From NCBI RefSeq assembly GCF_024704835.1, contig NZ_JAMXBE010000004.1:124001-188000 (forward strand): a stretch of 64,000 bases of DNA. The letters run 5' to 3'. The stretch's first letter is position 1; each line of letters opens with the position of its first letter. The position numbers and the translations under genes are program-made. Below the pieces are notes generated by a model that saw only the letters and a program-made list of their open reading frames with translations, searched no databases and was not told the origin of the DNA. Shown in pieces: positions 41,477 to 59,481 of this stretch. The DNA comes from Parapedobacter tibetensis. Lineage in GTDB: Bacteria > Bacteroidota > Bacteroidia > Sphingobacteriales > Sphingobacteriaceae.

Positions 41477-41504
41477 AACCCTGATTGATCAATCAGGGTT
41501 TTTT
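41477..41504 (+). terminator. Terminator of tRNA-Val, overlapping the end of the megasynthase operon
   Basis: AACCCTGATTGA/TCAATCAGGGTT is a perfect palindrome (41477-41500) followed by TTTT, 11 nt after the tRNA. The last gene of the minus-strand operon has its stop codon (TGA, 41493-41495) inside the right arm. The stem could also end the convergent transcript, though no T-tract exists in that direction. Confidence 0.8.
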
Positions 41505-42029
41505 GTTCACCTCAACGACTCCCCTTAATTTTTTAATCGATAGCCATACAAACGCTGCAGCCAATAAAGCAGCCAAGAAGCCCAGTATCACAGCTAATAC
41601 CCGCCCATCATAGGGCCTTTCGGCAGGAAGCAGCAACAAAACGAGGCCTATCGGAACACTTGCCATCAAGGTATGTACCGTGGCAATTTTGGTAATGAAC
41701 CGATACTTGGCAAAGGGTTGTGGCAGTTGAAAACCAACATCTTCCTTTTCGGCCATATCGATTGTTTTTTTAAGAATATCAAACGAAATGATAAATGGGA
41801 GCAACAACGCCATCGGCAATAGGAAACGTGCAAAATGTTGCTCCCCTCGAAACAGGTATACGGCTGTTGGATCCTCGAAATTAAAATAAGCAACCAACGT
41901 ATTGAAAACTAGATTCGTGGGTATATAAAGCCACAGATTCCTGCGGATTAACTTTCCTATCCGCACTCCGGGCCATGGTTCAGTCGCTTGTGTTTTGGAA
42001 CAGTCCATTACTGCTTCTTCCCGCTTCAT
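41493..42029 (-). CDS. Four-helix membrane protein, last gene of megasynthase operon
   Basis: This 178-residue protein has an N-terminal cytoplasmic segment of about 28 residues and four hydrophobic stretches (about 31-50, 69-86, 117-134, 144-165). The short helices are linked by charged loops (KKTIDMAEKEDVGFQLPQPFAKYR). No family is recognised. It is co-transcribed with the acyltransferase gene (4-bp gap), so a role in export, anchoring or tailoring of the product at the inner membrane is a reasonable guess, not shown by the sequence. Confidence 0.75.
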   Translation of the reverse strand: MKREEAVMDCSKTQATEPWPGVRIGKLIRRNLWLYIPTNLVFNTLVAYFNFEDPTAVYLFRGEQHFARFLLPMALLLPFIISFDILKKTIDMAEKEDVGFQLPQPFAKYRFITKIATVHTLMASVPIGLVLLLLPAERPYDGRVLAVILGFLAALLAAAFVWLSIKKLRGVVEVNKKP

Positions 42030-42033
42030 AACC

Positions 42034-43323
42034 TTAATTTTCTTGATGAACCGACATGGCCGAAATCAACTGATGCATGACCTGTTCCTTTATCGCTTCT
42101 GCTTCTGCTTCTGTAACCAGTGCCGTATTTGACATAAGAGAAAAATCCATCATACCTCGGTACGTGCTTAGCACTAGTGTGTTGGGATTGCGCCACGGGA
42201 ACCCTACGGTGGGACTGAAAATGGACTCCACATCGAAATGATCATAGTGCTCGGGAATGGCTAACCGCCCCATATTCGAAAAAGTCACATCATGGTCGCC
42301 GACAGATTGCAGCAAAAGTTTGACGATAAAGCCAACAAGCCCATGGAATCGCTCGCCCCGTACAAGCAGCTTAGGTACGTCCATGGCTTCAATACGTGTG
42401 GCCAAATCAGCTTTTACGTTCCTTGCCCTTTCCCAAAACGCTCCGGCAGGAGGCTTGGCGATATCGGTAATGGGCGCAAAGGCAAATAGCTGGTCGTCCT
42501 TAATAGCCGGTATGAACCGGCGGATGTCTACCGGACAGATTAGTTTCCCTTTGGCCCGCGTGCCCAACACTTGTGCAAACGCATCTAATACCGCGGTGCA
42601 GCATGCGGCGTACACCGTTGTCTGCTCGGCTTTGCAGGTGGCTACAATCGCGTCTGACAAAGCCCTGTCCAGTTTCCAATGGATAAAATAGCTTTCCCCT
42701 GATGCAGCTTGTTTTTGACTGCCTGTTTTGAACCACAGAAAGCCTCTGGCGATCAACATATATAGGTTGGATTTCAGTCGGGTGCCCAAACGTTGTGCAG
42801 CATCTACTTTACCTAGAAGATCTCCGACTTCTCCAAATAGCTGGTAAGCATCCAATTCCAAACTGGGGTTATCCAGCAAAAGCAGCAATTCACGCATCAA
42901 TGCCGTGCAACTTACCCCATCTACAAGACTATGCGGACACACCCATATCAATTCAGACACCTCATCGACACCGTGAAGCAAAACAACGTGCACAAGTGGT
43001 CCGTTTTCCTTGTCAAATGTCCTTGCCCATTCTTTCATCGATATCCGTTTCCAGTCGTCATCGGTATATCGAATGAGCTGCGTCAATAGGATTGGGGGCG
43101 GAGATTCCAACTCCACAAAATGGGGCAACCCACTTTGATCCTCACGTATGCCCATCCTCAATACCGGGTGCTTACCTTGAATTTTCTTCAAGGCCAGTTT
43201 TACATCTTCAGCTTTGATTTGTCCGCGAATTTTTGCGGCAAATATGCAATTGATGGAAGTATGAGCATCCACATGCAGGATGCGCTCTCCCATGGTCAGC
43301 TTTCTGGCAAATGTTGTTGTCAT
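42034..43323 (-). CDS. Condensation-fold acyltransferase, copy 2
   Basis: This 429-residue protein has the NRPS-condensation/PapA-type fold. The catalytic motif is H131-S-L-V-D135-G in CPHSLVDGVS, with one His where the family often has HHxxxDG. The conserved CPVDIRRFIP and FSNMGRLAIPEHY segments follow. The protein is a paralogue of the next gene (42% by impression, not measured), placed in tandem with a 9-bp gap. Such enzymes transfer an acyl group from ACP or CoA to a hydroxyl or amine. In this operon a glycosyl hydroxyl or an alcohol on the lipid is the likely acceptor. Confidence 0.82.
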   Translation of the reverse strand: MTTTFARKLTMGERILHVDAHTSINCIFAAKIRGQIKAEDVKLALKKIQGKHPVLRMGIREDQSGLPHFVELESPPPILLTQLIRYTDDDWKRISMKEWARTFDKENGPLVHVVLLHGVDEVSELIWVCPHSLVDGVSCTALMRELLLLLDNPSLELDAYQLFGEVGDLLGKVDAAQRLGTRLKSNLYMLIARGFLWFKTGSQKQAASGESYFIHWKLDRALSDAIVATCKAEQTTVYAACCTAVLDAFAQVLGTRAKGKLICPVDIRRFIPAIKDDQLFAFAPITDIAKPPAGAFWERARNVKADLATRIEAMDVPKLLVRGERFHGLVGFIVKLLLQSVGDHDVTFSNMGRLAIPEHYDHFDVESIFSPTVGFPWRNPNTLVLSTYRGMMDFSLMSNTALVTEAEAEAIKEQVMHQLISAMSVHQEN

Positions 43324-43332
43324 AACATCATA

Positions 43333-44622
43333 TTATGCGGTGGCTACGGCCAATTCAAGATTGGCTATCGCTTCATTTCTAATGGACTCGGCATCAGACC
43401 TCTGGATAAACCCTTCGTTACATACAAAAGAAAAATCAAGTTGGCCCTTATAGGTCGATGTAATCACCGTTGTCGGGTTGGCAAAAGGGCCAATAACGGT
43501 GGGACTGAAAATAGTATCGACTTCAAAATCAGTATAGGTTTGCGGTATTTGCAACTTTCCGATGTTTGAAAACATCAGGTCGTTACTTACCTTCCCATAG
43601 GTAAGTACTTTCAGCATGTTATCCAAGGCGCCATGGAGATTTTCCATGACCATGAGAAAATCATACGGTTTCATACCGTTAACCTGCTTATCCGATTGCG
43701 TTTGCAGCGCCTTTGCCTGTTGCCAAAAGTCCTTTGTACCATTTTTGGTCAATTGGAATTTGAGCACCAAGCCAAATGAAAACAGGCTGTCCTTATCAAT
43801 ACCCGGCACAAATCGACGAATATCCACCGGACATGTGAGCCGACCATGCGCCTGTCGCCCCCTCACCTGCTTAAAGGCCAATAGAAACGCTAGGGAAAGC
43901 ACCGTATTGACGGTAACCCCTTTTGCTGAGCAGGCGGAAAACAGTTTGGCCGAAAATGCCTGAGAGCACTTCCAATGTATCAGGTAATCGTCTACCCTGC
44001 TGATTTTTGGTTTGTTTTTGGTGGAGACAAACGCCACGGAAGTACTAAGCGCTACGCGAAGTAACCTGGCCAATAGTCGGGTACGCCTCCGCTGCTTGCT
44101 GCTACCCTGTACTTTCGACGGAATGATCGCCTCCAATCCGGGCAACCCTTGTGCAGGGCCCATGGAATGGTTAGGATTATCCAGCAGCTTCAACAATTCG
44201 GACATCAATACCACACCCCCACCCCCATCACAAATACAATGATGAAAAGCAAATATTAGATCAGCTCCGTCTGTATCCAATAGCATTTCCAATTGGGCCA
44301 ATGGTCCTATTCGGATATCAAATATGGTGCCCCATGCCTTTTTCACGGCATCTTTCCATGTCGTATCGCCCTTTCGTTTGCCCACTATTAATGGGATTTC
44401 AGGGCCTTGTTCAGCCACGCGGAAAGCCGGCAGTCCCTTGGCGCTGTTTACCACATATGCCTTTAATATCGGGTGCTTGGCCTGCACTTTCTGCAAGGCT
44501 TGCCTTAGTCGACCCTCATCTACCTGTCCCTTTATCCGCAAGGCAAAAACACCGTTAAAGGCTGCTGTGCCATCTCCATAGAGCACCCGCTCCAAAAACA
44601 ACAGGTCCCTTTCCTTAATCAT
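43333..44622 (-). CDS. Condensation-fold acyltransferase, copy 1
   Basis: This 429-residue protein has the complete H127-H128-C-I-C-D132-G motif (FAFHHCICDGGG) of condensation/PapA-type acyltransferases, and CPVDIRRFVPGI and FSNIGKLQIPQTY as in copy 2. The N-terminus LRIKGQVDEGRLRQALQKVQAKHPIL is the domain's first helix. The start codon overlaps the preceding glycosyltransferase stop by 4 bp (ATGA), which indicates translational coupling. Its likely role is O-acylation of the lipid or glycolipid product. Confidence 0.85.
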   Translation of the reverse strand: MIKERDLLFLERVLYGDGTAAFNGVFALRIKGQVDEGRLRQALQKVQAKHPILKAYVVNSAKGLPAFRVAEQGPEIPLIVGKRKGDTTWKDAVKKAWGTIFDIRIGPLAQLEMLLDTDGADLIFAFHHCICDGGGGVVLMSELLKLLDNPNHSMGPAQGLPGLEAIIPSKVQGSSKQRRRTRLLARLLRVALSTSVAFVSTKNKPKISRVDDYLIHWKCSQAFSAKLFSACSAKGVTVNTVLSLAFLLAFKQVRGRQAHGRLTCPVDIRRFVPGIDKDSLFSFGLVLKFQLTKNGTKDFWQQAKALQTQSDKQVNGMKPYDFLMVMENLHGALDNMLKVLTYGKVSNDLMFSNIGKLQIPQTYTDFEVDTIFSPTVIGPFANPTTVITSTYKGQLDFSFVCNEGFIQRSDAESIRNEAIANLELAVATA

Positions 44623-45824
44623 ACTACTAACTCTCCATTTTCAGGCGATGCTATGGCGAAATCCTCCAATAGCTGCACCGCTCGCTCATTGCCGCCTGCA
44701 GCTGTAAAAGACTGCCCAATACGCATGGCGTTTTGCCGGTAAGCATCATTTGCGATCAGCTGCCAAAGCGCATAACGTAAATCAGCGATACGCAGCCTTT
44801 TGTAGCGTATTTTAATACCGCACCCCGCTTTTTCAATCAGCCCGGCCGTATGGAAATGATCATAAGCAATGGGCGTGATTAACATGGGCAAGCCATTTGC
44901 GAAAGCATCATTCACGGTATTGAAACCGCCATGGCAAATTACCACATCCATATGTGGCATGAGCTGCGCCTGTGGAACAAACCCTTGCACGATGAAATTG
45001 GCGGGCCATGAATCCCTGATTTTCGGGTTGGTTGCGGCAATGATAGTAACGGGTTCATTGGCAAAAGCTTCTACCAATTTGGCAAAATAGGCTTCCCGGA
45101 TATCTTCCAACAATGTACCTAAGGAAACAAACACTTTAGGCCCCGTGGCATTTTCCAATCGCTGCCAATCGAAAGGCACGTCATTGGGCCTACCCTTCAC
45201 CGGACCCACAAACCGCATATGGGGTTCAGGGTTTTCAATGGCAGCGAATTCAGATGAGGTAAACACGATGTTGAGCTTCTGCGAATGGATCACCAGATTT
45301 GGTGCGTCTATCCCCACCGACCGTTGCAGATCATACATTAGCTTGCTCTGCCATTCCATCACGCGTAGAGCATCTATATGTTGTCCTCCGATATCAGGAG
45401 GTACCGGTGTGCTGGTTACGTAAGGAATTTGCTTCTTATAGGCGCATAACCCGCCGGCAAAAGTAATGCAATCACTGATGATGACATCGGGTGCGTAATC
45501 ATCCACTACCCGCTCCAATCCGTTCATCATGATGCGGCAAAAGGGGATATATGTTTCTTCCAGGGCCAGCTTCCACGTTTCGGCGCCAGATAACCGAGGG
45601 CCATCATCTTGTCGCCTTAGGATTCGGGTAATCTCCTCCTGATGCATGGCCAATTCATCCGTTGGCAAGATGTATTCCCCCCCTTTTGGGATATGAGAAT
45701 CATCCAAGGGAATGAGCCCTGTCCACGCCACTTGATGCCCTCGCTGCAGCAAACTGGCTCCTACACTCAGCGTTGGGCTAATGTGGCCAAAAAAAGGCGG
45801 CACTACAAATAGATACTTATGCAT
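44619..45824 (-). CDS. MGT-type UDP-glycosyltransferase (GT1), second copy
   Basis: This 401-residue GT-B enzyme of the macrolide/UGT family starts VVPPFFGHISPTLSVGASLLQRG. It carries the donor-binding C-terminal signature CHGGFNTVNDAFANGLPMLITPIAYDHF. It lies 7 bp downstream of its paralogue. Enzymes of this family use UDP- or dTDP-sugars and act on hydrophobic acceptors, which suits glycosylation of the operon's lipid product. The donor sugar is unknown. The gene ends 4 bp inside the next gene. Confidence 0.87.
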   Translation of the reverse strand: MHKYLFVVPPFFGHISPTLSVGASLLQRGHQVAWTGLIPLDDSHIPKGGEYILPTDELAMHQEEITRILRRQDDGPRLSGAETWKLALEETYIPFCRIMMNGLERVVDDYAPDVIISDCITFAGGLCAYKKQIPYVTSTPVPPDIGGQHIDALRVMEWQSKLMYDLQRSVGIDAPNLVIHSQKLNIVFTSSEFAAIENPEPHMRFVGPVKGRPNDVPFDWQRLENATGPKVFVSLGTLLEDIREAYFAKLVEAFANEPVTIIAATNPKIRDSWPANFIVQGFVPQAQLMPHMDVVICHGGFNTVNDAFANGLPMLITPIAYDHFHTAGLIEKAGCGIKIRYKRLRIADLRYALWQLIANDAYRQNAMRIGQSFTAAGGNERAVQLLEDFAIASPENGELVV

Positions 45825-45831
45825 ACAACTG

Positions 45832-47073
45832 TTATCCTTTATGGGTTACTTCAAATGGCTTTTTGTCTGCCTTTGTCCGGTATCCCCCTGACTGCGACAA
45901 TTCCTCAAGCCGCGAAGCGGCATCATCGGTACCACCCAAACCGGCAAAAGCCTTTTGTATGGTGGCGGCCTTTTGACGATAAGTATCATCCAGCAGCACG
46001 GTTTCCACGGCGTCTTTCAAATGTTGCGACTTGAAACGTTTATAATTGAGTCGTATTCCACATCCGGTTTCCACCACACGGCCCGCCACATAGGATTGGT
46101 CATAGGCAATGGGTATCACCACCAACGGCAATCCATTGGCCAAGCTTTCGCATACGGTATTTTGTCCGCCATGGCACACTACGGCATCCAGATGTGGTAG
46201 CAACTCCACCTGAGGTATCTTTTCGCAAACCATAAAATTGGGCGGCCATTCGGTGAATAGCTTGGGATCGGTTACCACCACCACCTGCATAGGCTGCCCG
46301 GCAAACGCCGTCACAACTTTAGCAAAAAACTCTTTTTTGTAAGCATGGTCAAACGTGGTGCCGATGGAAACCAGCACTCTTGGAGCTCCGGGCTCCATGG
46401 TTTCAAAGCGCTTCCAATCGAATGGCGCAAGTGATCGGCGGTGCTGCATCACCGGCCCTGTGAACCGGTAATGGGGAGGAAGCGCCATATCTCCAAAAAA
46501 AGCGGCAATGCTAGTAATCAGCACCAGTTGGGGCGAAAGGGTGATATCAGCTGAACTAAGCAATCCCAATTCACGCTGCAGGGCAAGCACCTGCTTATGC
46601 TCCCAAGCATATACCCCTGGCAAATCATATTTCAACCGAATGGCCGCCGGAGCGGTGACCAATGTGGCATACTGGATATCCAATAGGTTTGCTGCAAATG
46701 CACCGGCAAATAGCTCGTGGTCATGGATCACTACATCCGGTTGGAATGCGTTGAGGCAACCTACAATGCCTTTAAACATATACCGGTTGAGTGGCATAAG
46801 CACATCTTCATATAAGAACTTCACGCTCTCAATGCCCGTAAAGTGATTTTGGGTGATGTGGTTTTGATAATCGGACTGGTCATGCTGTGTCACCAAACTA
46901 CCGGCTTCCTGTACCAAGAGCGATTTCCCTCCTACTGGAAGCTGTGCTGGTAAGGATTCGTCGAGGCTAATCCATGCCACTTCATGGCCCCGCCTCAGCA
47001 GTTCGGCACCGATGCTCAATGTGGGATTCACATGGCCGGTAAACGGTGGAACAGTAAAAGCAAATTTGGCCAT
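45832..47073 (-). CDS. MGT-type UDP-glycosyltransferase (GT1), first copy
   Basis: This 413-residue GT-B enzyme begins FTVPPFTGHVNPTLSIGAELL and has the donor motif CHGGQNTVCESLANGLPLVVIPIAYDQ with the usual C-terminal Asp/Gln that contacts the sugar. It is encoded 3 bp after the alpha/beta-hydrolase stop. Two GT1 enzymes in tandem imply either two sugars on one acceptor or one sugar at two positions. Similar pairings of GTs with acyltransferases are known in phenolic glycolipid loci of mycobacteria. Confidence 0.88.
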   Translation of the reverse strand: MAKFAFTVPPFTGHVNPTLSIGAELLRRGHEVAWISLDESLPAQLPVGGKSLLVQEAGSLVTQHDQSDYQNHITQNHFTGIESVKFLYEDVLMPLNRYMFKGIVGCLNAFQPDVVIHDHELFAGAFAANLLDIQYATLVTAPAAIRLKYDLPGVYAWEHKQVLALQRELGLLSSADITLSPQLVLITSIAAFFGDMALPPHYRFTGPVMQHRRSLAPFDWKRFETMEPGAPRVLVSIGTTFDHAYKKEFFAKVVTAFAGQPMQVVVVTDPKLFTEWPPNFMVCEKIPQVELLPHLDAVVCHGGQNTVCESLANGLPLVVIPIAYDQSYVAGRVVETGCGIRLNYKRFKSQHLKDAVETVLLDDTYRQKAATIQKAFAGLGGTDDAASRLEELSQSGGYRTKADKKPFEVTHKG

Positions 47074-47076
47074 ACC

Positions 47077-47841
47077 TTATCTTTTTTCTATAAAATACTT
47101 CACAAGTGCGGATCCTACGGCATCCGGTTGTTGGATGGGGATGTTATGGTCGCCATCCAGCAACTGCAAGGTGGAGTCGCCCAGTCGCTCTTGCAACTTC
47201 TTGGCTGCATGGAGGCAGTTTGACTGCTTTCCATAAATTAGCAAAGCGTGCCGGATGGCACCTAGGTTTTCCGCTTCCATAAAATGCTGGTCACGGAGCA
47301 TATCGGCTTTCATGGTGGTTTGATGGAACAGAAATTCGTATTTCCGGTGGTTTTTCTCCAACTGTCGTTTGCCCATGCTGAACCGCGTGGTATCCGTATA
47401 ATTGGCAATGTAATTTTCCAGAAACTCCCTGCTATAAACATTGATCACATCCCTAGTTTGCTGGTCAGCGGGGTCAGGAGTATCGATGATGGCCAATCGT
47501 TTCACACGGTCTGGAAACCTTAGCGCGCTTTTCAGGGCTATCAGGCCGCCGAAGCTATAACCCACCACATAGACCTCGGGGAGATGGAGATAATCCAGCA
47601 GACCCTTGAAATCATCAGACATATCCGCTAAACCATAACCAGAATTTACCTCTTCGCTCAAGCCATGGCTCCGCAAATCATACATCAGCACATGGAAATG
47701 CTGGGCCAGCAACGCGGCAATGTTGAAATAATAAACGGACAAATTGCTGAACATGCCATGAATAAGTACCACCGTAAGCGTACCTTGCGGGTTTAGCTCC
47801 TGCATATGTATAGCAAGGCCGTTTACCTTAATGACGGGCAT
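47077..47841 (-). CDS. Alpha/beta-hydrolase, probable chain-release or editing enzyme
   Basis: This 254-residue protein with start at 47841 (MPVIKVNGLAIHMQEL) overlaps the ACP stop by 14 bp; the longer frame from 47889 lies inside the ACP gene. The fold shows VVLIHGMFSN (oxyanion loop), nucleophile G-Y-S-F-G-G at about residue 93, and LDGDHNIP with the catalytic His near the C-terminus. The megasynthases have no thioesterase domain, so it is the only candidate for hydrolytic release of the chain or trans-editing of the ACP. It could instead act on a later ester. Confidence 0.85.
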   Translation of the reverse strand: MPVIKVNGLAIHMQELNPQGTLTVVLIHGMFSNLSVYYFNIAALLAQHFHVLMYDLRSHGLSEEVNSGYGLADMSDDFKGLLDYLHLPEVYVVGYSFGGLIALKSALRFPDRVKRLAIIDTPDPADQQTRDVINVYSREFLENYIANYTDTTRFSMGKRQLEKNHRKYEFLFHQTTMKADMLRDQHFMEAENLGAIRHALLIYGKQSNCLHAAKKLQERLGDSTLQLLDGDHNIPIQQPDAVGSALVKYFIEKR

Positions 47842-48133
47842 GCTGGATATAGCTAATGATGTCATCCAAATTGAGTGCGATGAGCTCATCCAAATCCATG
47901 CTGGATAGCCATCCTGTGAAATCGATCTGCTCCCCGAAATGGGTTTTCACCTTTTCGGAAAAAGCCACGATTTCGATGCTATCCATTTCCAAATCTTTGG
48001 TAAAGGAGCTTTGCGGGGTAATATCCAGGTCTTCCATGAATTCTTCGCCGATGACTTCGGTGATAAAGCCTTTCAATGTGTCAAATACATCTGAATTGCC
48101 CGATGAGACAGGCTGAGTAGTTATAATGTCCAT
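47828..48133 (-). CDS. Stand-alone acyl carrier protein
   Basis: This 101-residue protein has a carrier fold with FTKDLEMDSIEIVAF, where the Ser of DSI (about residue 56) is the predicted phosphopantetheine site. Helix 1 (FDTLKGFITEVIGE) and a C-terminal helix (LDDIISYIQ) match the carrier fold. Its start overlaps the second megasynthase stop by 13 bp, which indicates coupled translation. Beyond the two ACPs in the first megasynthase it may serve as release or loading carrier for the hydrolase and acyltransferases. Confidence 0.85.
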   Translation of the reverse strand: MDIITTQPVSSGNSDVFDTLKGFITEVIGEEFMEDLDITPQSSFTKDLEMDSIEIVAFSEKVKTHFGEQIDFTGWLSSMDLDELIALNLDDIISYIQHARH

Positions 48134-51100
48134 CCGATTATATAATTTTTGTAGCTAATGGTATGAATAATGGTTTGATTTATCGTCAAGTTAAAACCTT
48201 CAATGTCGCTTACTTCATAAGCTTTGGGATTGCCTTTCAATCCCATGCCAAGGTATTTTCCATAAGCTTCCTTGGCCACCCAAAACCGGGTGTACCATTC
48301 GGCGAGATCCCTTCCTGCCAACAGCTTTTTCTCAGACACTGTGAATACCATGTTGGCAAAACCTTCGTCCCGCTCCAGAATTTCCTCCATATCAATTCCC
48401 ACCGGAATGCCGAATCGGGCAATGGCCACGCTGTCCTTGTTCTTGTGCGATAAGGAAACTTCCACGCCATCTGCTGGGCCATGCCCCACCACCATAGGCT
48501 TGCCATAAGGGTTAGAGGCGATTTCCAATTCAATGGGGTAGCAAGCTTCAGCGCCGCCGTTACGCATCGCCAGCCGAACGGCATCTTTGGCAGCCACACG
48601 GCTGATGATACGCTCCCGTTGTTTCCGTGGGTTCAATGATTTCACCTGTTTCTTTTCAGTCTGGTTGAGGTATCTTTTGATAATGAAATCCCAAGAGACC
48701 ACGCGCTGGTAGGCATTATGAAAGAAACACACGCCTGGGGCTATTTCTTCAGACAACAAGTTATTTAGCGGATCCATCGATACATTCCACAGGCGTTCAT
48801 CAATTTCCAGCCGCCGGTTTTGCCAGCCCCGAATATAAGCCCATAGGTGCCCACTCTTTTCTATGATGATATCGGCTGAGGCAAATTCGTCATTGAGTTG
48901 CGTGGAGAGGCAGGTACAGGTAAAATTTCCTTGCTGGTCATGGCGGTCGGCATAGAACTGCACCTCATCTATTTTGACGGGGAAAGCCACCTTGTCTTGA
49001 TCAAGTGTGAGCTGCAGCCAGAGGCCAAACAATTGCCCGGCATTATCCAATAATGAGCCTTTGCCGGCTGCTCCCACTATGATGCCGCGGATACCGCCTT
49101 GTCCCACGGATAATACCTGCTGTATGCCCTGGTAGGCTAATCCGTGAAACATATGATGCGTATAAATCTGCTCCGGTGTGATGGTTATGGGTAGCGTTGC
49201 CCCAATTTCCGTAGTATACAAAGGCACCTCTTCATACCGGGTTGATAGATCCACCGACGCACTGGCGTAGTCGCTTAGTATGACGCTGACCGTATGTCCG
49301 TTATCATCTTTTGTTGCCTTCAACGTATCCCGGAAAGGATTGGCTACATTGAGCCATTTATGCACCTTTATCTGTTTGATTTTATGCACCATCTGCCCTT
49401 CTTCAGACAATGATTCCCCCATTTCAGCAAACAGCTCCAGAATCATGGTCATTGGTATCACCGGATCCGTATCTTCCGGATGGGGCCAGCCCTCCCGTTG
49501 ACGGATTAACGCGTGGTCTGTCAGATACGGGGTGTTTTGCAGGGAAATGTCCAATTCCCTGACAACCGATTTCAGTTTTTGGGGGGATGTTACGCTGGTT
49601 TTAAGCCGTTGAATAATGGTCGCCTGCGCTTCCTGTAGTTCATTAATGTTGGCCACATAGGCGTCCACCAGCGGATGTACCGTACCCAGCTGGGTATAGG
49701 TATCATACGGCAAAGCATACTTGGGCACATTTGCCCTTCCTTTCAAGGTATCCAGTTCTTTTACGAAAGGAGAACCGAGTTGCAGCGTAATGGATGTTGA
49801 CTGCTGCGCCGTCCGTGGTGGTTCAATCCCCAACAAGGTAAGATCGGTATTTTTCCCCTCCACAAATAAGGCGGCCAGCACCCGTTTCAACTGATCCAGT
49901 CCACGCCGATGCGGCGAGTTTGCCGCTATTGCGCTATAATTCTTTCCCTTCAGCGTATCATCTACAAAACCAACCAAACCACCCGATCCCACCTGAATGA
50001 AACAGCGTACCTCTTCCTCCCTGTACAGTTTAGCAATCAACTCCCGGAAACGCACAGGTTTTACGAGATGTGCAATGCTGAGCTCCTTGATGGCTTCATT
50101 GTCGTCCGGATAAGTGGTTAACGTGGTGGCCGACCAAAGCGGTGTGGTCAACTTGCGGAATTCCATCTGGTTCATGCCCAACATCAAGTAGTCGAGTTGT
50201 TCGTGCATAAACGGGGAATGGAACCCCGACTGGAATGGCATAGATTGGTGGAAAATCTGCTTTTGACGCAGCACAGCAACAAATTGGTCCACGGCCTCAT
50301 TGGTACCGCATAAGATTACCTGCTGCGGGCAATTGTCTATGGCTAGGTAAACATCAGGGGTGTTTTGCAGTAGTGGCAGCAAAGTATCTGCTCCGGCGCC
50401 CACGGCTAAAAACCGGGTATGGAGCTGTTCAAAAGAGTCAGGGTTGAGCCGTTGCAACAAGTTTGCCACGGAGGCTTCTGTAGCCAAGCCCGATGCGCGC
50501 CCGGCTAGCCATTCGCCTAAACTATGCCCGGCATTGAGGTCGGGAACAACCCCCAGCAACTTCAACGCCGAATCAATGATCCGGCTGCGTTCCAGGACTT
50601 CAATGGCTGTGCCAAAAACGCCCTCCCCATTACCTTGCTTGTTTGTGGCTTCGCCCAATGGCAAATCAAAATAAGTAACCAGGCTTTCCACTTCGCCTCC
50701 AGCGAGCGCATCAAGCCCAGGAAACAGGAAGGCAATTTTGCCGCCACGTGTCAACAGGGGTTCATTGGAAAACCAAATGTCCTGCCGATTACGCCATGGT
50801 TTACCCCGCTGCACGATTTTGATGGCTTTCTGTATACGCTCGGGGCTGGGGTCAAATAAGGCTATCCTGTAATCTCCGTGGCCTAGGTCTTGCTGCCCTT
50901 CCTCCAGTGCTTTAATGAGCGATGCCGCTGAGGATCGGGCCAGCAACCGAGCTTTATCCTGCATTGGAAAAGCAGGGATATCGTTAGGATGGTCAAAGGC
51001 TTCGAGCACCACATGGGCATTTATCCCACCAAATCCGAACGCATTCACTCCAGCCACCAAGGGCAGTCCGCTTTCCGGCCAACTTCGAGCTTGACGGATA

Positions 51101-52374: not shown

Positions 52375-55300
52375 GTCTGTGCCATTAACTCCGCTGTTTT
52401 CTGCCCAGCCATAATAAGCACCTGACTATCTTGGCCATATTTCAATTCCTGTAAAAACCACGCTTTCCCTTGCTCCAGGGGGATTAGTTTGATGCCACGA
52501 CGTTTGTAGGTTCTTTCCAAACCCGGGGAGACCATTCCCGCACCTTTCCATGGCCCCCAATTAATGGCCATCACCTTGCCGTCAATCCGCTTGTTTTGGA
52601 TATGTGCAAATTCATCCAGCACACTGTTGGCCGCCGCATAATCCGTTTGGCCACGATTCCCAAAGACTGATGCCACACTGGAAAACAATACCATGAATTT
52701 GAGTCCATCCCAGCGCAACCGATCAATGAGAATATTCAGCGGGGCTACTTTCGTATCATACACCCGCTCAAATGATTCAATTGATTTTTGCTGGAATAAT
52801 TTATCTTCGAGCAACCCGGCACCATGGACAACACCATCTATGCGCCCATAAGTAGCATACAATTCATCAATGAACGCGGCCAAAGCTACTCCGTCTTGTA
52901 AATCCAAGCTATGGTAGGAAACTTCAGCACCACATTGGCCAAATGCAGCCAATGATTCCCGAATTTGGTTGGTCTTGAAAATCTCATTGGCCCGACGGGT
53001 TATTTCTGCAGGGCTTGTATAACGGCCACTATCAATCAGCGTCTTTTTTATCGTCTCGAAATCCATAAGGCTCGCAAACTCCTCTTCGATGGTTATAAGC
53101 GGTGTACGGCCGACTAACACATAACGGCAGGGGCTATCATTAGCCACATGCTGCATGAGCTGGGCGGTGATCCCCTGGGCACCTCCAAAGACTAAGATCA
53201 CATCCTCTTCGTCCAATGCCAATGATGCCGAATGCCCTGTTTCCAAATCCTCAGGAACGTGTTGCCATACATGGCGTAGTCCCTCTTTGTATACAATCTC
53301 CATTGTGCCCTCCGGATGGGCTAGCTCATCCAATACCCAGGCAGCCATTTGCTCAATACCTGTTGCGGATTCCACATGGATGACCCGGCAGCTGGTTTGT
53401 TCCCATTCATGTCCCAAACTTTTCAACAAACCTGCAAATCCTTGCGATTGCTCGGGTAAACTGGGGCTTTCCAATAGTGCATAAACCCACTTTGTCTTAT
53501 CGGGAGCCAAGCCCTTGAGTATAGGCAATGCAGCTTTGAGCGATATCGAATCAGCCGGTACCGATAACAGATTAGGAAATATCAAGCCATCATATGCAGG
53601 AAGATTGTCGACCGCGCCGTTATGGATGAGGTCTACCGTCGCTCCTTTTTCTTCAAGCATACCCTTCATCATATCACTCCATGTACCTGATCCCAAGATA
53701 GCTATATGCTCTCCGTCAAATGTCAAGCTGGTATTGTCAGGCAGGGGCACGGATAACGCTCCAAAGCGAAAACGTGACAAGCCATTTTGATCGGTATCTT
53801 CATCGGACAGCGACCTATCGTCATCCAATATCTTTTTGGCCTCGGCGACGGTTTCAAGGCCACCCGAAACCGCATTTTTCACCCATTCCACCAAGCCATT
53901 TAATGATTTGATGGACGCCATCTGCTCCATCAGCCTTTCATCGTCGGTTTCGCTGTTTTTATCAAACAGGCCCATCTGCGTCTTCACTTCCCCCATGATT
54001 TCCATGCGTTTGATGGAGTCAATGCTGAGGTCGGCCTCTAAATCCAAATCCATACCCAGCATATCCGCTGGATAGCCTGTTTTATCGCTCACTACCGTTA
54101 GCAAAATAGTTTTGATTTGCGATTCAGTCAGTCGGGTGGACGCTTCGGGAAGCGTCACTGGAGTGCCTTCATGCGCAGGTGCATCCGTAGTAGGCCTGTA
54201 TTGGGTAATCCATTCCAATAACGCGCTGAGGGTTTTTATACCGGCCAGATCCTCCATCAATGCTTCATCTTCTACGCCATCCGGTTTTGAAAAGCCCCCT
54301 AGCTGGAGACGGAGTTCACCAATGATTTCCATACGCTTGATGGAATCGATGCTAAGGTCGGCCTCCAAATCTAAATCCATGCCTAGCATATCCGCTGGAT
54401 AGCCTGTTTTGTCACTCACAATATGTAACAGGATATCCTTAAGCGGTAATGCTGCGGTGGCAGCCGGTGGTAATACCTCGGTGGTTGCCGCAGGAACAAC
54501 ATCTATTGTTCTCCCCGTGCCCAACTCGGCGATCGGTCGATCTGCCACGCTTGGTTGCTGGCCAGGGTTTTGACCCAAATAGCCGAGCATCACATCCCGT
54601 TGCGACTGTGCCAGTTGGCGCATGCCCTCCAAATACTCCGCTATCAATTGCACAGGCTCGGCATTGCGCCCCGGTGTGGCCTGGTGAGGTATGCTGGAAA
54701 AGGTAGACAACGGCGTTATCACGGGCAGGGCCGCATAGCTAGGTATCTTACCGTTTTCCGGCATGGCCAGTTGCCCATTGACCCACCATGTACTTTTGCT
54801 GTGGCTGTACTGTTCGATATTATGTAGGTCCAACAGCCGCGCTTCCCTTCCATCAAACAATAATTGCAGCTTGAGGTCCCTTCCGGTGGCCATGTAGCTC
54901 GCAATAGCTCCCAAGAAATGGGCAATACCCGCTTGGTTACGGTCCTCGGTATGAATAATGTGGGCATCCGTCCCCACGATGGATCGGGTGAGACCGGAAA
55001 GTACGTTGCCGGGCCCAACTTCGATGAATATACGGGTGCCCTGTGCATATAGTTGTTCGATTTCTTCAACAAACCGCACGGGTTTGACTAAATGTTCAGC
55101 CAACTGCTCCTTGATACCGACTGCTGTTTGGGGATAGGGTTGCGCTGTCGTGTTTGACCACACCGTAACGCCTGCCGGTTTAAAATCAACCGCATCCAGC
55201 ATCTCGCGGTACGTTGATTTGGCTCCAGCAATCAGCGGGCTGTGGAAGGCACAGGCCACGTCCAATGCTTTGCAGGGGATACCGGCCGATTTCAGCCGTT

Positions 55301-58300
55301 GCATAGCGGCTGTGATAGCCTCGGTACCACCAGCCAACACCCATTGCTGGGGTGAATTGTGATTCACGGCATACACACCTTGTTCAGCATTGGCTAGCTC
55401 GGAAAACGCATCTTGTGAAGCGTTGACCGCGAGCATCATCCCTTTGTCGTCTCCTACGGCATCGAGGATGGCTTTGGCCCTCCACTCACTCAGCGGCACC
55501 AACAAGTCTTCGCTAAATACACCGGCGAAACAAAGCGCAGGCAATTCACCGTAGCTGTGGCCCACCAACACATCAGGCACCACACCCAGATTACGCAGCA
55601 AATCTGCCAAGGCATAATCTACGATACCCAATAATGGCTGGGCCATCCGGGTATCCTTCATCCTTTCCCTCTGCCGTACGGATTCAGCAGGGTCAAAAGT
55701 GGCGGGAGGAAATAAAACATCCGCATAGGCGGGATACCGTTCAAGCCAATTGCGTAAGCTGGGAAATGCAAGGAAAAGTTGCCTTGCCATGCCAATACGC
55801 TGGCTTCCCTGGCCGGAAAAAAGCAACGCTACCTGGCCCGCTTGCGGTTGGGTATAATGGATTACCTTATCAACAGCACCTGTACGGGCCAGCGCCATCT
55901 TGTTCAATAATTCTTCCATAGAAGTGGCTACAATGGAATACTGAACCGGATGATCGCTGTACATGGCCAAGCTATAGGCAATGTCCTTGAATGGGAGACT
56001 ATGGTTTACCGCCATCAGCTTTTCGGCCAATGTCATTACCTCCAGGGCTTCTGTGCTAGACGTACCCCGGAATACAAACAGCTCCGCGGGCCAAACCTTC
56101 ATCACAGCTTCATTTCTTGTTTCCGTTGAAGGATGTTCCAGTATGGCGTGGAAATTCGTGCCGCCAAATCCAAAAGCACTTACCCCGGCCCGGCGTTTCT
56201 CTTCAAGCCATGGTGTAGCTGCCACATGGAATACAAACGGGCTAAAGCGCTCCCTATAATATGGATTTGGTGTGTTGAGGTGTAAAGTTGGTGGTTTGAT
56301 ACCATGGTAGACCGATAAGGCCGCTTTGATAACACCGGCAAGACCGGCTGCACATTTTGTATGACCAATCTGAGTCTTTACTGACCCCAGCAAGGTACTT
56401 TTATTTGCAGCACCGGCAGCCAACCACATATCGCTGAGCGCGCTCATTTCCGTGCGGTCGCCCACCACTGTACCGGTACCATGGGCCTCTACCATTCCCA
56501 CGTCTGCGGCTGATATGCCAGCCTGCCAATAAGCCCTTTCCAGCGCCCTAAGCTGTCCGGTTTTTCGGGGTGCGGTAAGCCCCAGGCTTTTCCCGTCGCT
56601 TGATCCGCCAATGCCTTTAATTACCGCATATATCTTATCTTTATCGGCTATGGCATCTTCATGGCGCTTCAGCACCACCATGGCAATGCCTTCGCCCAAT
56701 GCAATGCCATCTGCCTCGCTGTCAAATGTAGCGCACCTCCCTTTTCGGGAAAGGGCGTGGGTGCTAGCAAACAGTAAATAATCGTTGATGCTATTATGGA
56801 GATCAGCCGCTCCGGCAAGAACCATGTCGGATTTACCTAGTAGCAATTCCTGGCATGCCAGATCCAGCGCGGCCAGTGAAGACGCACATGCGGCATCGAC
56901 CGTATAATTCCGTCCTCCGAGATTGAGTCTATTGGTGATACGGCCCGCAATCACATTGGCCAGTACTCCGGGAAACGAGTCTTCCGTAAGCCTAGGCAAC
57001 GCCTCATCAAGTTCTGAAGGCATTTGCCCAAAAAGTTGTGGAAATAGGGCCCGGAATCCATAGTTATTGGCCAGGTCGTGGCCGCCCTCGGCACCGATAA
57101 TAACCGAGACATCATCGCCATTGAACGCATCGCCGCCATAACCAGCATCATCAAGTGCCTGCTTGGCCACGAGCAGGCTCAGCAATTGGGTGGGATCAAT
57201 GGCGGCAAGCGACTGGGGTGGTATGCCGAATGCCAAGGGATCAAAAGCGACTTTAGGGATAAACCCTCCCCATTTGGATGGCGATTTCTCGCCATGCTGA
57301 GCATCGGGATCGTAATAGACCGCTTTGTTCCAACGCTCATCCGGCACTTCGGTGATGCAGTCCTTTGCCAACAAGACGTTGGTCCAGAATTCATCCATGT
57401 TTGATGCCCCGGGGTAAATACAGGCCATGCCAACAATGGCGATATCCAAGCCTGCTGTTTCATGAGTTTCGGGATTTATGGGTTTCGACATCGCCTCAAT
57501 CAATTTTTGGCTACCCGTGGATACCTCGCTATGCAGTTGTGCCATGGTCACAATCTCATGCCGCAGCGATACCACCTGCCCGATCATAAACATGCCCATT
57601 TCAGCCCTTTGCTCGGCGGTGAGTGCTACCAATTGTGGACCTTTCCTCATCTTACCCTTGCTGGCAATGCGTAGTCGGCCTACATTAAGTGCCTCCAATT
57701 TGGCCCATATTTCCTTCTTGTCTGTTGTTTCCGAGGCCATTTTCCGTTTTTCCATTTCGAAAAACCCAGCGAATGGCGAATCTAGGCACCGGGTTTCATG
57801 ACCCGGTGCGGTTTCGAGCAGTACCGTTTCCGAGTGCATAAGTGCATGGTCTTGGAACTGCTTGAGGATAGCTCCGGTTTCAACCGCCTCTTGCGTGTAG
57901 AGGTAGGCTGTACCCATCAGCACCCCCACTTTGCCTCCCCTTGCTGCCAGCGGGGCCGCCATTACCGCTACAAACGACGCGGATAGCGCATCGTGTATGC
58001 CTCCGGCAAAAAATACATGTAACCGCTCCGCCTGCTCCTCATCCAGCAACCGGGTAAGCTGCATTTCCCATAGTACAAGACTAGATAATGGTCCCACATG
58101 TCCTCCGCATTCCCGGCCTTCGAATACAAATTTGGCTGCGCCTTCCTTCAGGAATAAATCCAGCAGCGCCATCGCAGGGACATGCAGAAATGCGCTGATG
58201 CCCATTTTTTCCAGTGCGGCCGACTGGCTTGGCCGACCCCCAGCAATCAGCGCAAAGGGTGGCTTTTCTGCCATGATGTAGGCCATTTGCTCATCTCGCA

Positions 58301-59384
58301 ACTCTTGAGGCACAAAACCTAATATCCCAACTCCCCAAGGCTTATCCGCTACCCGCGCCTTGGTCTCAGTAATCAGCGCTTTCGCATCTTCGCCTTTCAT
58401 CAACGACAAAGCCACGAAGGGTAATGCTCCAGCTTCGGCAACGGCATGGGCAAAAGCTGGCACATCACTCACTCGGGTCATCGGTCCTTGCGCGATGGGG
58501 TAATCGGTGCCCAAATCCTTGGCCATCGTATTGCCCATACCCAATACATTCACCGCCTTGGCCTGCCTAATATGCCCTTGGATGGCATCATACAACGCAT
58601 GGATGAGGTTTGTTATTTTTCCATACCGTTTGGCCATACCCCCAGCAAAGGCAATATCTTGCCCCATTGGCACGTAAGCCTCATTAAGGTCTAATTCACC
58701 CAGTAATGGTTGCAATTTGTGCCATCCGGCCCCTTCGGTCAACGCCGGTGAGTTGGGACGTACCAAAACCCTGAATCCGTCGATGATGCGGGTTTCGTTG
58801 CCGCTTAATTTTTCGCACAACTGTTTCAAAGGCGTTGGCACGCTGCATTCTGCAAAAAGTGCCACTTGGCTATCCAGCACCACCCCTTTGGCCCCGAGGG
58901 CTACCAAACCCGCCGTGGTATGGACGCCGGCACCACCTTGCACCCATACATCTATATCAGGTAGCTCTTGTTTAATCCGTTGGAAAAGGATAAATGCAGA
59001 ATCATTTCCCACTTTCCCTGCACTTTCACTGCCTTTGACAATGATGCGTTGGAATCCCGCCGATTTGGCTGCCATGGCATCGGTCACCGACGTCACTTGG
59101 TACAACACTTCACCCGTATAAGAAACGGGTATGGGCTTGCCCCAGGGCAAAATGAGCAGATTTACCTGTGATGGGATGGATGATGGATATGGGCTATCAT
59201 CGGCGAGACAAATCCCAAAAGGTTTGCCCTCATATCGACTTACCTGTATCAATGCCGCATTGGCTTCATCAGCATCACGGCCAACGTGCAATACCGGGAA
59301 GGCAGTCGTTTTTCGCAGCCGGTTTACCAGGGCTGTATCTGGTTTTTCAAAAGGGGTAATAATGATAATTTGAGCCGAATTCAT
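52371..59384 (-). CDS. Type I megasynthase, NMO-NMO-KS-AT-ACP-ACP-KR
   Basis: The start at 59384 (MNSAQIIIITPF) gives 2337 residues; an upstream Met at 59438 adds 18. The order is an N-terminal nitronate-monooxygenase-like half (about 3-200, VQGGAGVHTT region, probably degenerate) and a complete NMO/PfaD-like TIM barrel (about 287-545). KS follows (646-1082; C833, H968, H1008), then AT (1185-1472; GHSYGE S1277, H1381), two ACPs (S1681 and S1790 in DSIKRM) and KR (2060-2282; FGGAQGI, Ser 2235/2236 and Y2249 in TDYAAAN). The ACP motif LDLEADLSIDSIKRMEI and KR type belong to the PUFA synthase superfamily. The NMO barrel stands where PfaD would be, suggesting an enoyl reductase in cis. Confidence 0.94.
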   Translation of the reverse strand: MNSAQIIIITPFEKPDTALVNRLRKTTAFPVLHVGRDADEANAALIQVSRYEGKPFGICLADDSPYPSSIPSQVNLLILPWGKPIPVSYTGEVLYQVTSVTDAMAAKSAGFQRIIVKGSESAGKVGNDSAFILFQRIKQELPDIDVWVQGGAGVHTTAGLVALGAKGVVLDSQVALFAECSVPTPLKQLCEKLSGNETRIIDGFRVLVRPNSPALTEGAGWHKLQPLLGELDLNEAYVPMGQDIAFAGGMAKRYGKITNLIHALYDAIQGHIRQAKAVNVLGMGNTMAKDLGTDYPIAQGPMTRVSDVPAFAHAVAEAGALPFVALSLMKGEDAKALITETKARVADKPWGVGILGFVPQELRDEQMAYIMAEKPPFALIAGGRPSQSAALEKMGISAFLHVPAMALLDLFLKEGAAKFVFEGRECGGHVGPLSSLVLWEMQLTRLLDEEQAERLHVFFAGGIHDALSASFVAVMAAPLAARGGKVGVLMGTAYLYTQEAVETGAILKQFQDHALMHSETVLLETAPGHETRCLDSPFAGFFEMEKRKMASETTDKKEIWAKLEALNVGRLRIASKGKMRKGPQLVALTAEQRAEMGMFMIGQVVSLRHEIVTMAQLHSEVSTGSQKLIEAMSKPINPETHETAGLDIAIVGMACIYPGASNMDEFWTNVLLAKDCITEVPDERWNKAVYYDPDAQHGEKSPSKWGGFIPKVAFDPLAFGIPPQSLAAIDPTQLLSLLVAKQALDDAGYGGDAFNGDDVSVIIGAEGGHDLANNYGFRALFPQLFGQMPSELDEALPRLTEDSFPGVLANVIAGRITNRLNLGGRNYTVDAACASSLAALDLACQELLLGKSDMVLAGAADLHNSINDYLLFASTHALSRKGRCATFDSEADGIALGEGIAMVVLKRHEDAIADKDKIYAVIKGIGGSSDGKSLGLTAPRKTGQLRALERAYWQAGISAADVGMVEAHGTGTVVGDRTEMSALSDMWLAAGAANKSTLLGSVKTQIGHTKCAAGLAGVIKAALSVYHGIKPPTLHLNTPNPYYRERFSPFVFHVAATPWLEEKRRAGVSAFGFGGTNFHAILEHPSTETRNEAVMKVWPAELFVFRGTSSTEALEVMTLAEKLMAVNHSLPFKDIAYSLAMYSDHPVQYSIVATSMEELLNKMALARTGAVDKVIHYTQPQAGQVALLFSGQGSQRIGMARQLFLAFPSLRNWLERYPAYADVLFPPATFDPAESVRQRERMKDTRMAQPLLGIVDYALADLLRNLGVVPDVLVGHSYGELPALCFAGVFSEDLLVPLSEWRAKAILDAVGDDKGMMLAVNASQDAFSELANAEQGVYAVNHNSPQQWVLAGGTEAITAAMQRLKSAGIPCKALDVACAFHSPLIAGAKSTYREMLDAVDFKPAGVTVWSNTTAQPYPQTAVGIKEQLAEHLVKPVRFVEEIEQLYAQGTRIFIEVGPGNVLSGLTRSIVGTDAHIIHTEDRNQAGIAHFLGAIASYMATGRDLKLQLLFDGREARLLDLHNIEQYSHSKSTWWVNGQLAMPENGKIPSYAALPVITPLSTFSSIPHQATPGRNAEPVQLIAEYLEGMRQLAQSQRDVMLGYLGQNPGQQPSVADRPIAELGTGRTIDVVPAATTEVLPPAATAALPLKDILLHIVSDKTGYPADMLGMDLDLEADLSIDSIKRMEIIGELRLQLGGFSKPDGVEDEALMEDLAGIKTLSALLEWITQYRPTTDAPAHEGTPVTLPEASTRLTESQIKTILLTVVSDKTGYPADMLGMDLDLEADLSIDSIKRMEIMGEVKTQMGLFDKNSETDDERLMEQMASIKSLNGLVEWVKNAVSGGLETVAEAKKILDDDRSLSDEDTDQNGLSRFRFGALSVPLPDNTSLTFDGEHIAILGSGTWSDMMKGMLEEKGATVDLIHNGAVDNLPAYDGLIFPNLLSVPADSISLKAALPILKGLAPDKTKWVYALLESPSLPEQSQGFAGLLKSLGHEWEQTSCRVIHVESATGIEQMAAWVLDELAHPEGTMEIVYKEGLRHVWQHVPEDLETGHSASLALDEEDVILVFGGAQGITAQLMQHVANDSPCRYVLVGRTPLITIEEEFASLMDFETIKKTLIDSGRYTSPAEITRRANEIFKTNQIRESLAAFGQCGAEVSYHSLDLQDGVALAAFIDELYATYGRIDGVVHGAGLLEDKLFQQKSIESFERVYDTKVAPLNILIDRLRWDGLKFMVLFSSVASVFGNRGQTDYAAANSVLDEFAHIQNKRIDGKVMAINWGPWKGAGMVSPGLERTYKRRGIKLIPLEQGKAWFLQELKYGQDSQVLIMAGQKTAELMAQT
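53997..54089 (-). repeat. Duplicated ACP segment, second copy
   Basis: Encodes 31 residues identical to those of the first ACP (54324-54416), from SDKTGY to KRMEI. The two 93-bp stretches differ at 11 positions, all synonymous by my reading of each codon. It reflects a tandem carrier duplication kept under strong purifying selection. Confidence 0.9.
54324..54416 (-). repeat. Duplicated ACP segment, first copy
   Basis: Partner of the stretch at 53997-54089, with identical protein sequence and 11 synonymous changes. It carries the phosphopantetheine Ser of the first ACP. Confidence 0.9.
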
Positions 59385-59481
59385 CGATAACGTTGTATAG
59401 ATAAGTTGATAAACAAGATTTTCATCCGCATGTGGCAATTGCCCGTTACTACTTTCGCTATGCCGTTGCCAAGTTTAGGGG

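Follow-up and report, generated by a model that had tools for sequence, protein, structure and literature searches.

The DNA analysed here is a 64,000-bp stretch of the Parapedobacter tibetensis genome (contig NZ_JAMXBE010000004.1, positions 124,001‒188,000; hereafter the window, in whose own numbering all positions are given), and our subject is a nine-gene operon on its minus strand, a candidate pathway for an acylated glycolipid. Nine open reading frames (ORFs) between 41493 and 59438 were all confirmed where a preliminary description of the sequence had placed them, and Pfam and NCBIfam agree with the protein types proposed there: two megasynthases with ketosynthase (KS) and acyltransferase (AT) domains, an acyl carrier protein (ACP), a hydrolase, two glycosyltransferases (GTs) and two acyltransferases of the condensation fold. 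In operon order, these are the megasynthases PksA (52371‒59384) and PksB (48121‒52374, 1417 aa), a discrete ACP (47828‒48133, 101 aa), an alpha/beta hydrolase as the putative release enzyme (47077‒47841), the MGT-type glycosyltransferases GT1 (45832‒47073, 413 aa) and GT2 (44619‒45824, 401 aa), the PapA-like acyltransferases PapA1 (43333‒44622, 429 aa) and PapA2 (42034‒43323, 429 aa), and a membrane protein of an unnamed family (41493‒42029, 178 aa). Eight of the assignments draw on Pfam, joined by NCBIfam for PksA and the GTs, by alignments for PksB, the ACP, the GTs and the acyltransferases, and by structure profiles for the acyltransferases; the membrane protein was recognized from its ORF and hydrophobicity. 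Two starts were set from homologues. The longest PksA ORF begins at TTG 59438 (2355 aa), the start given previously, but since homologues align from residue 8 to 19, commonly 18‒19, the start is probably ATG 59384 (2337 aa). Similarly, the hydrolase (270 aa as the longest ORF, from 47889) is placed from about 47841 (254 aa, from residue 17), since its homologues mostly align from residue 16‒17.

The operon is a real and tightly conserved gene unit. A profile of the dehydratase (DH) and phosphopantetheinyl transferase (PPTase) part of PksB gave 243 pattern matches in named genomes, of which 212 were confirmed as relatives; gene order, the PksB tree and the residue counts are those of the best 80 of these 212 loci. 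The block PksA-PksB-ACP-hydrolase-GT-PapA is complete in 79 of the 80, and the remaining locus (L069) ends at a contig edge. Irregular cases among the 79 are L105, whose hydrolase ORF was given a start ahead of the ACP, L122, with PksA split into two ORFs, and L082, which has two GT2 ORFs. The same gene order, which was to be sought in other Sphingobacteriales, is present there in Pedobacter, Mucilaginibacter and Sphingobacterium, and the carriers extend beyond to Chitinophaga, Niabella, Taibaiella, Flavihumibacter, Dyadobacter, Siphonobacter, Chryseobacterium and Flavobacterium, with a few further loci whose genus is not clear from the record. The operon thus ranges over Sphingobacteriaceae, Chitinophagaceae, Weeksellaceae, Flavobacteriaceae, Spirosomataceae and Siphonobacter, including many Bacteroidota of soil, water and plants, and its core also occurs in Streptomyces. 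No downstream gene recurs in more than 12 of the 80 loci. In wider samples, PksB-like proteins were detected in 60 of 300 genomes from the order of the window (E 1e-100) and in 4 of 395 from the phylum (E 1e-150), its own genome being counted in both. They were also detected in 67 of 118 genomes of a single genus (E 1e-150), two of the 67 being broken or partial (G783, G744); we take this genus to be Chryseobacterium from its fused GTs and from a PksB with ~87% identity to the copies in named Chryseobacterium. In Pedobacter panaciterrae O48, the operon occurs twice on the same contig (L089, L090), with identical PksB proteins.

Catalytic residues were compared in alignments that include the window and leave out fused GTs and proteins shorter than 85% of the window's length, giving 79 rows for PksA, 80 for PksB, 81 for the ACP, 81 for the hydrolase, 91 for PapA1, 85 for PapA2, 66 for GT1 and 65 for GT2. 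PksA begins with a FabK/NMO-type enoyl reductase (ER) domain (57495‒58553; Pfam NMO, 69.1 bits; solved FabK structure, E 6.5e-17) preceded by a degenerate FabK/NMO-like copy (58569‒59384, read by eye), both with approximate limits and both missed in the preliminary domain list. His447 of the ER is kept in 79/79 rows. In the first copy, a His occupies the FabK catalytic position in 0/79 rows, and this copy therefore looks inactive as a reductase. Pfam and the alignment place KS1 at 56058‒57446, a malonyl-type AT1 at 54882‒55829, two ACP domains at 53889‒54440 (approximate limits) and a ketoreductase (KR) domain at 52545‒53198. All 79 rows keep Cys851, His986 and His1026 of KS1, Ser1295, Arg1320 and His1399 of AT1, where Arg1320 is the malonyl-binding residue, the ACP serines 1699 and 1808, and Tyr2267 of the KR, whose Ser is also invariant. 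Counted by DSIKR-type motifs, two ACPs are present in 78 of the rows and three in one.

PksB consists of KS2 (50926‒52374, from the alignment), AT2 (49840‒50739), a dehydratase of the polyketide synthase (PKS) type (48790‒49554) and an Sfp/AcpS-type PPTase domain (48175‒48612), the last three having approximate limits from Pfam and the alignment. Since the triad Cys209, His344 and His383 is intact in 80/80 rows, KS2 is an intact ketosynthase and not a chain-length factor (CLF). AT2 keeps Ser618 and His719 in every row and carries, 25 positions after the Ser, a Leu in 80/80 rows where AT1 has its malonyl-binding Arg (79/79); AT2 therefore probably does not take malonyl. The dehydratase is PKS-type and not FabA-type, with PS-DH at 25.5 bits against a cut-off of 23.7, a match that all 9 of the aligned members share when hits up to E 1 are counted, and weak matches to the solved structures of CurK (E 0.0037) and PksJ (E 0.0067). 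Pfam gave no FabA-type dehydratase/isomerase (DH/I) in the operon proteins, and none appeared up to E 1 in the DH-PPTase part. His954 and Asp1110 of the dehydratase are kept in 80/80 rows, the PPTase Asp and Lys are invariant in the aligned PksB rows, and Ser52 of the discrete ACP is kept in 81/81.

The catalytic Ser and His of the hydrolase are likewise invariant in its aligned rows. GT1 carries the donor motif DQ in 66/66 unfused rows, and in GT2 a DH motif replaces DQ in 65/65. In plant glycosyltransferases, Gln at this place favours glucose and His galactose, which offers a lead only for the sugars of GT1 and GT2. The two GTs form one ORF of 801‒812 aa in 15 of the 80 loci, and all 15 fused proteins carry DQ in their N-terminal half and DH in their C-terminal half. 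These loci belong to Chryseobacterium (seven), Flavobacterium (five) and Sphingobacterium (three); the 80 contain no further loci of these three genera. The fusion suggests that both sugars belong to one product.

The HHxxxDG motif of PapA1 is kept in 91/91 rows. In PapA2, the second His and the Asp are kept in 85/85, and the first His in 7/85 (Pro in 73, Ala in 5), which makes it the sole exception among the catalytic residues checked, all others being invariant. The nearest solved structure for both acyltransferases is 8s6l, labelled phthiocerol dimycocerosyl transferase (E 4.5e-32 and 1.2e-28). The Pfam PapA_C model scores 26.7 and 23.2 bits on them, below its cut-off of 30, and the NCBIfam PapA5 model reaches 39 bits at best against a cut-off of 396. 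Every one of the 80 loci has two or more PapA-like genes, and 16 have three full-length ones, a count that excludes L066 and L116, where PapA1 lies in two short ORFs. The membrane protein has hydrophobic peaks in windows starting near residues 69, 115 and 144. It matched no family at E 0.001, and a search for relatives gave nothing convincing (best E 0.81 and 0.0029).

Among systems whose product is known, the type I fatty-acid synthase of the ars loci (Type P) comes nearest in domain order. Type P synthases are reported to make the alkyl chains of phenolic lipids in Azotobacter vinelandii, and Beijerinckia indica is named as a carrier (PMC3098273); ArsA is described as making C23‒C25 acids (PMC4824345), and C22‒C26 is given for the ars chains of Azotobacter (PMC13291983). 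The Beijerinckia sequence encodes an ER-KS-AT-ACP-ACP-KR protein and a DH-PPTase protein, and PksA shares its ER-KS-AT-ACP-KR architecture with proteins of both Beijerinckia and Methylosinus. The PksA homologue on B. indica pBIND02 is 42% identical over 1537 aligned positions. In the operon, however, the DH-PPTase unit is the C-terminal part of a KS-AT-DH-PPTase protein, whereas in ars it is a separate, ArsD-type protein without KS2-AT2. The Beijerinckia locus has, in the place of a type III PKS, two genes annotated with a KAS III C-terminal domain, while the operon has GTs and acyltransferases. Methylosinus C49 has a layout like that of Beijerinckia, with one KAS III C-terminal-domain protein. 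No type III PKS was detected by Pfam in the operon, and the best match in the genome of the window reached 25.1 bits (cut-off 27).

A second relative lies on Streptomyces plasmids (NBC_01243, NBC_00984), where tblastn found a KS1 62% identical to that of the window. The gene order is the same: PksA (46% over residues 2‒1745; 30% in the KR part), PksB (37%), ACP (27%), hydrolase (29%) and a GT (35% to GT1). In contrast to the operon, there is one GT, with no second one listed, and a methyltransferase dependent on S-adenosylmethionine follows the core. Searching the same plasmids with tblastn did not find PapA1, PapA2 or the membrane protein. That a GT accompanies this core while no PapA was found there points to the synthase's own product as the substrate of the GT, and the comparison suggests that acylation was added in Bacteroidota. 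Transposase genes lie near the Streptomyces clusters. In the mycobacterial pathways for phenolic glycolipids and phthiocerol dimycocerosates (PDIM), PapA-type acyltransferases and family-1 GTs act on a long-chain synthase product, as their counterparts in the operon would. The mycobacterial synthases differ in architecture, however, and the acyltransferases of the operon are distant from PapA5. On a plasmid of Rhodobacteraceae SC52 (L168), a PksA-like synthase (KS1 47%) has a dioxygenase, a methyltransferase and a large protein with a PPTase among its neighbours, and is perhaps another head-group variant.

The operon also resembles the polyunsaturated fatty acid (PUFA, Pfa) synthases in its KS-AT-ACP-KR backbone, its DSIKR-type ACPs and its FabK/PfaD-type ER. 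It differs from them in having two ACPs, no CLF, PS-DH in place of the FabA-type DH/I, and the ER fused to PksA. Type A PUFA synthases are described with four to six tandem ACPs (PMC3098273). A PUFA synthase was rejected on these grounds, namely the ACP number, the missing KS-CLF, the type of dehydratase and a score below the cut-off of the PfaA model TIGR02813, whose best stretch in the genome search reached 648.2 bits. Enediyne PKSs carry KS-AT-ACP-KR-DH-PPTase on one protein, and this class was also rejected, the domains of the operon being split over two proteins with an ER and a second KS-AT present.

Among uncharacterised classes, Shulse and Allen (2011) list a Type N secondary lipid synthase from Chitinophaga pinensis and Chryseobacterium gleum (PMC3098273). 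The phylum is the same, and both genera are among the carriers of the operon. In sections 6 and 7 of that paper no tailoring gene is named for Type N, and the main text nowhere uses the word glycosyltransferase. Matched by genera and the paper's description only, the operon class is probably Type N, and the operon is most likely a tailored form of it, a variant of the secondary-lipid-synthase kind. The preliminary description knew of no characterised locus with this gene set in Bacteroidota, and literature searches agree, as no product was found described. In one survey, only 12 of 306 Bacteroidetes gene cluster families are stated to group with known reference clusters (PMC9248904).

We read the locus as an operon that is complete in itself, probably moves horizontally and serves to make an acylated glycolipid through an ars-like synthase carrying one more condensing unit, and we put the probability of this reading at roughly 55%. 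The domain make-up, the catalytic residues, the missing Arg of AT2, the gene block and the GT fusion are seen in the sequence; from there we infer the order of steps, chain length, saturation, hydroxyl position, sugar identity and the role of the membrane protein. The PPTase of PksB would first charge the ACPs. PksA and PksB would then work as an ars-like iterative type I fatty-acid synthase, in which AT1 loads malonyl, KS1 condenses, and the KR of PksA, the DH of PksB and the ER of PksA reduce, giving a long, mostly saturated chain. KS2-AT2 may perform one or a few extra condensations with a non-malonyl acyl group handled by AT2, possibly served by the discrete ACP, and this would probably leave one or more oxygen functions on the chain, such as a beta-hydroxyl, for the glycosyltransferases. 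The hydrolase would release the product, GT1 and GT2 would add two sugars, and PapA1 and PapA2 would esterify hydroxyls on the sugars or the chain. Where present, the small membrane protein may help membrane assembly or export.

Several observations weigh against this reading. PapA5 (1q9j) is a weak match for the two acyltransferases (E 7.8e-7 and 8.4e-9), below several condensation domains of nonribosomal peptide synthetases, and the acyl-transfer role thus rests on fold and motif. The position of the missing Arg in AT2 was read from the alignment alone. The Beijerinckia ArsD-type DH-PPTase protein matches PksB weakly (27% over 527; PksB residues 913‒1392), and the ars sequence compared is that of Beijerinckia, for which PMC3098273 states that phenolic lipids were not found, the product being known from Azotobacter. 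In a KS tree of 41 rows, covering eight of the 80 loci and without authenticated PfaA, HglE or enediyne KS, the KS1 and KS2 of the window each join their Bacteroidota counterparts (100/100 and 100/99) followed by the corresponding domain of Streptomyces (100/98 and 100/99). The tree does not settle how, at the deep node, the KS1 clade and the Type P pair branch relative to a PUFA-like clade, so labelled from a Persicobacter locus with repeated ACPs and tandem KS-like domains, and the term ars-like thus rests on domain order. PksA reaches 999.5 bits with TIGR02813, whose cut-off is 1010.1, and a score this near the cut-off makes the kinship with PUFA synthases real at the KS-AT-ACP-KR level. 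The membrane protein was detected in 68 of the 80 loci, not in all; the other 12 (all eight Dyadobacter, three Chitinophaga and one Mucilaginibacter) may have a diverged copy or none. Finally, literature searches found no compound, expression or knock-out described for the operon, and a search on the Sphingobacterium detergens biosurfactant as a product lead gave nothing useful.

The near-cut-off PfaA score, together with the ability of iterative synthases to skip steps, would also suit a polyunsaturated or polyene glycolipid in which enoyl reduction is omitted in some rounds. The preliminary description had favoured a polyunsaturated or hydroxylated chain that becomes an acylated glycosyl lipid. 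Its acylated glycosyl lipid from one pathway is upheld by the conservation of the block, the GT fusion and the 8s6l match, while its polyunsaturated chain is not supported, given the absence of a FabA-type DH/I and of KS-CLF, the two ACPs in 78 of 79 rows and the intact KR-DH-ER set with ER His447 in every row. With a complete reductive set, a pair of ACPs, the PS-DH and domains split much as in ars, a long and largely reduced chain is more likely than a PUFA, and we regard polyunsaturation as improbable. A heterocyst-glycolipid-like lipid, a long diol or keto-ol that carries a sugar and is built as in cyanobacteria, seems to us less probable still. It would follow the same logic of an iterative synthase with a glycosyltransferase, HglC too has an extra KS and AT on a second protein (PMC3098273), and hgl islands, some of them in Bacteroidetes, are reported to be close to PUFA-type PKSs (PMC11804610). 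HglC, however, is KS-CLF-AT, whereas the intact KS2 is followed by AT-DH-PPTase without CLF, and the Pfam scan found no thioester reductase domain.

A further possibility concerns the role of the chain rather than its structure. The synthase could supply the acyl donor and not the aglycone, with PapA1 and PapA2 esterifying a glycoside that GT1 and GT2 build on another acceptor. PapA5 in mycobacteria takes its chain from a synthase, and such a role would fit both the best structural match, a PDIM transferase, and the PapA-like genes, which number at least two in every locus and three in 16. In the Streptomyces core, however, synthase and GT occur with no PapA found by tblastn, and the chain there probably meets the GT or the hydrolase directly. 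We think the acyl-donor role unlikely, though less so than polyunsaturation, beside the preferred pathway, in which the chain itself is glycosylated.

The phylogenetic misplacement of the window copy is seen in a PksB tree of 82 rows built with a quick method. A clade of 60 rows, with Pedobacter, Mucilaginibacter, Sphingobacterium, Chryseobacterium, Flavobacterium and others, excludes the window (SH-aLRT 97). By path, the rows nearest to the window are from Chitinophaga, although the window sits on a long branch and the tree gives it no closer group. A single group of the window with Pedobacter and Mucilaginibacter, genera of its own family (43 rows), was rejected by the approximately unbiased (AU) test (p 9e-9), a group that was named after seeing the tree and a test that long branches may sway. 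The operon adjoins a tRNA-Val gene (41392‒41467, plus strand). From this tRNA gene to a gene for an FAD-dehydrogenase, the distance is 679 and 640 bp in two genomes of the same genus and ~18.6 kb in the window, where the operon lies between them. The short stretches at this spot in the two genomes (L147:1991-2669 and L149:1419-2058) differ from each other, which suggests a variable insertion spot. The dehydrogenase gene is present in three of nine genomes of the genus, that of the window included, and none of the seven same-genus relatives within the order sample gave a PksB match (E 1e-100). The G+C content is 50.2% in the operon and 44.8% in the rest of the window. Taken together, the tree placement, the AU test, the tRNA-Val setting and the G+C content are good evidence, short of proof, that the window copy was gained horizontally. 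Beyond the tRNA-Val/dehydrogenase pair, comparison with the two same-genus stretches revealed no synteny to the left or right: of 11 flanking ORFs compared, the dehydrogenase alone matched. No att repeat or duplicated tRNA-Val end was found near 59‒60 kb; apart from the palindrome adjoining the tRNA, matches were of 11‒12 bases at most. The Sphingobacterium operons with a fused GT are likely a second transfer: in L107, L134 and L141, PksB groups with Flavobacterium (98), then with Chryseobacterium (100), and not with the family-mate Pedobacter.

The perfect 24-bp palindrome at 41477‒41500 is followed by T residues on the plus strand and overlaps the end of the membrane-protein gene. It is probably the tRNA-Val terminator, and a search of the two same-genus stretches did not find its core. 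At the other end, an exact match to the Bacteroidota promoter consensus, TTG-N19-TANNTTTG, lies on the minus strand at about 59893‒59922, ~0.5 kb before the PksA ATG. The region 60035‒63571, beyond this upstream end, encodes the FAD-binding dehydrogenase, which scores 948 bits as a member of the PRK12834 family, and a pair of proteins with carboxyltransferase domains (CT_C_D, CT_A_B). Elsewhere in the window, three adjacent minus-strand genes (27698‒34087) encode a tripartite efflux system of the resistance-nodulation-division (RND) type, with an AcrB-type pump, an HlyD-type adaptor and an outer-membrane factor. Outside the window, the same genome has a second large KS-AT ORF of ~2232 aa (G000:C45:387266-391144, L003).

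More tentatively, and at somewhat less than even odds in our judgement, the operon may stand for an undescribed and widespread group of envelope or secreted lipids of Bacteroidota. These would be very-long-chain hydroxy-acyl diglycosides, O-acylated two or three times, the products of an ars-like synthase that has gained a condensing unit. The module would have passed from family to family, and its core from one phylum to another, while the head-group enzymes changed. Around one synthase core, the partners are a type III PKS in ars, a GT and a methyltransferase in Streptomyces, and two GTs with PapAs in Bacteroidota, which amounts to a natural experiment on the transfer of a chain from a type I fatty-acid synthase to different partners. 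As a common operon for which no described product was found, it could account for unidentified glycolipids in environmental genera of Bacteroidota.

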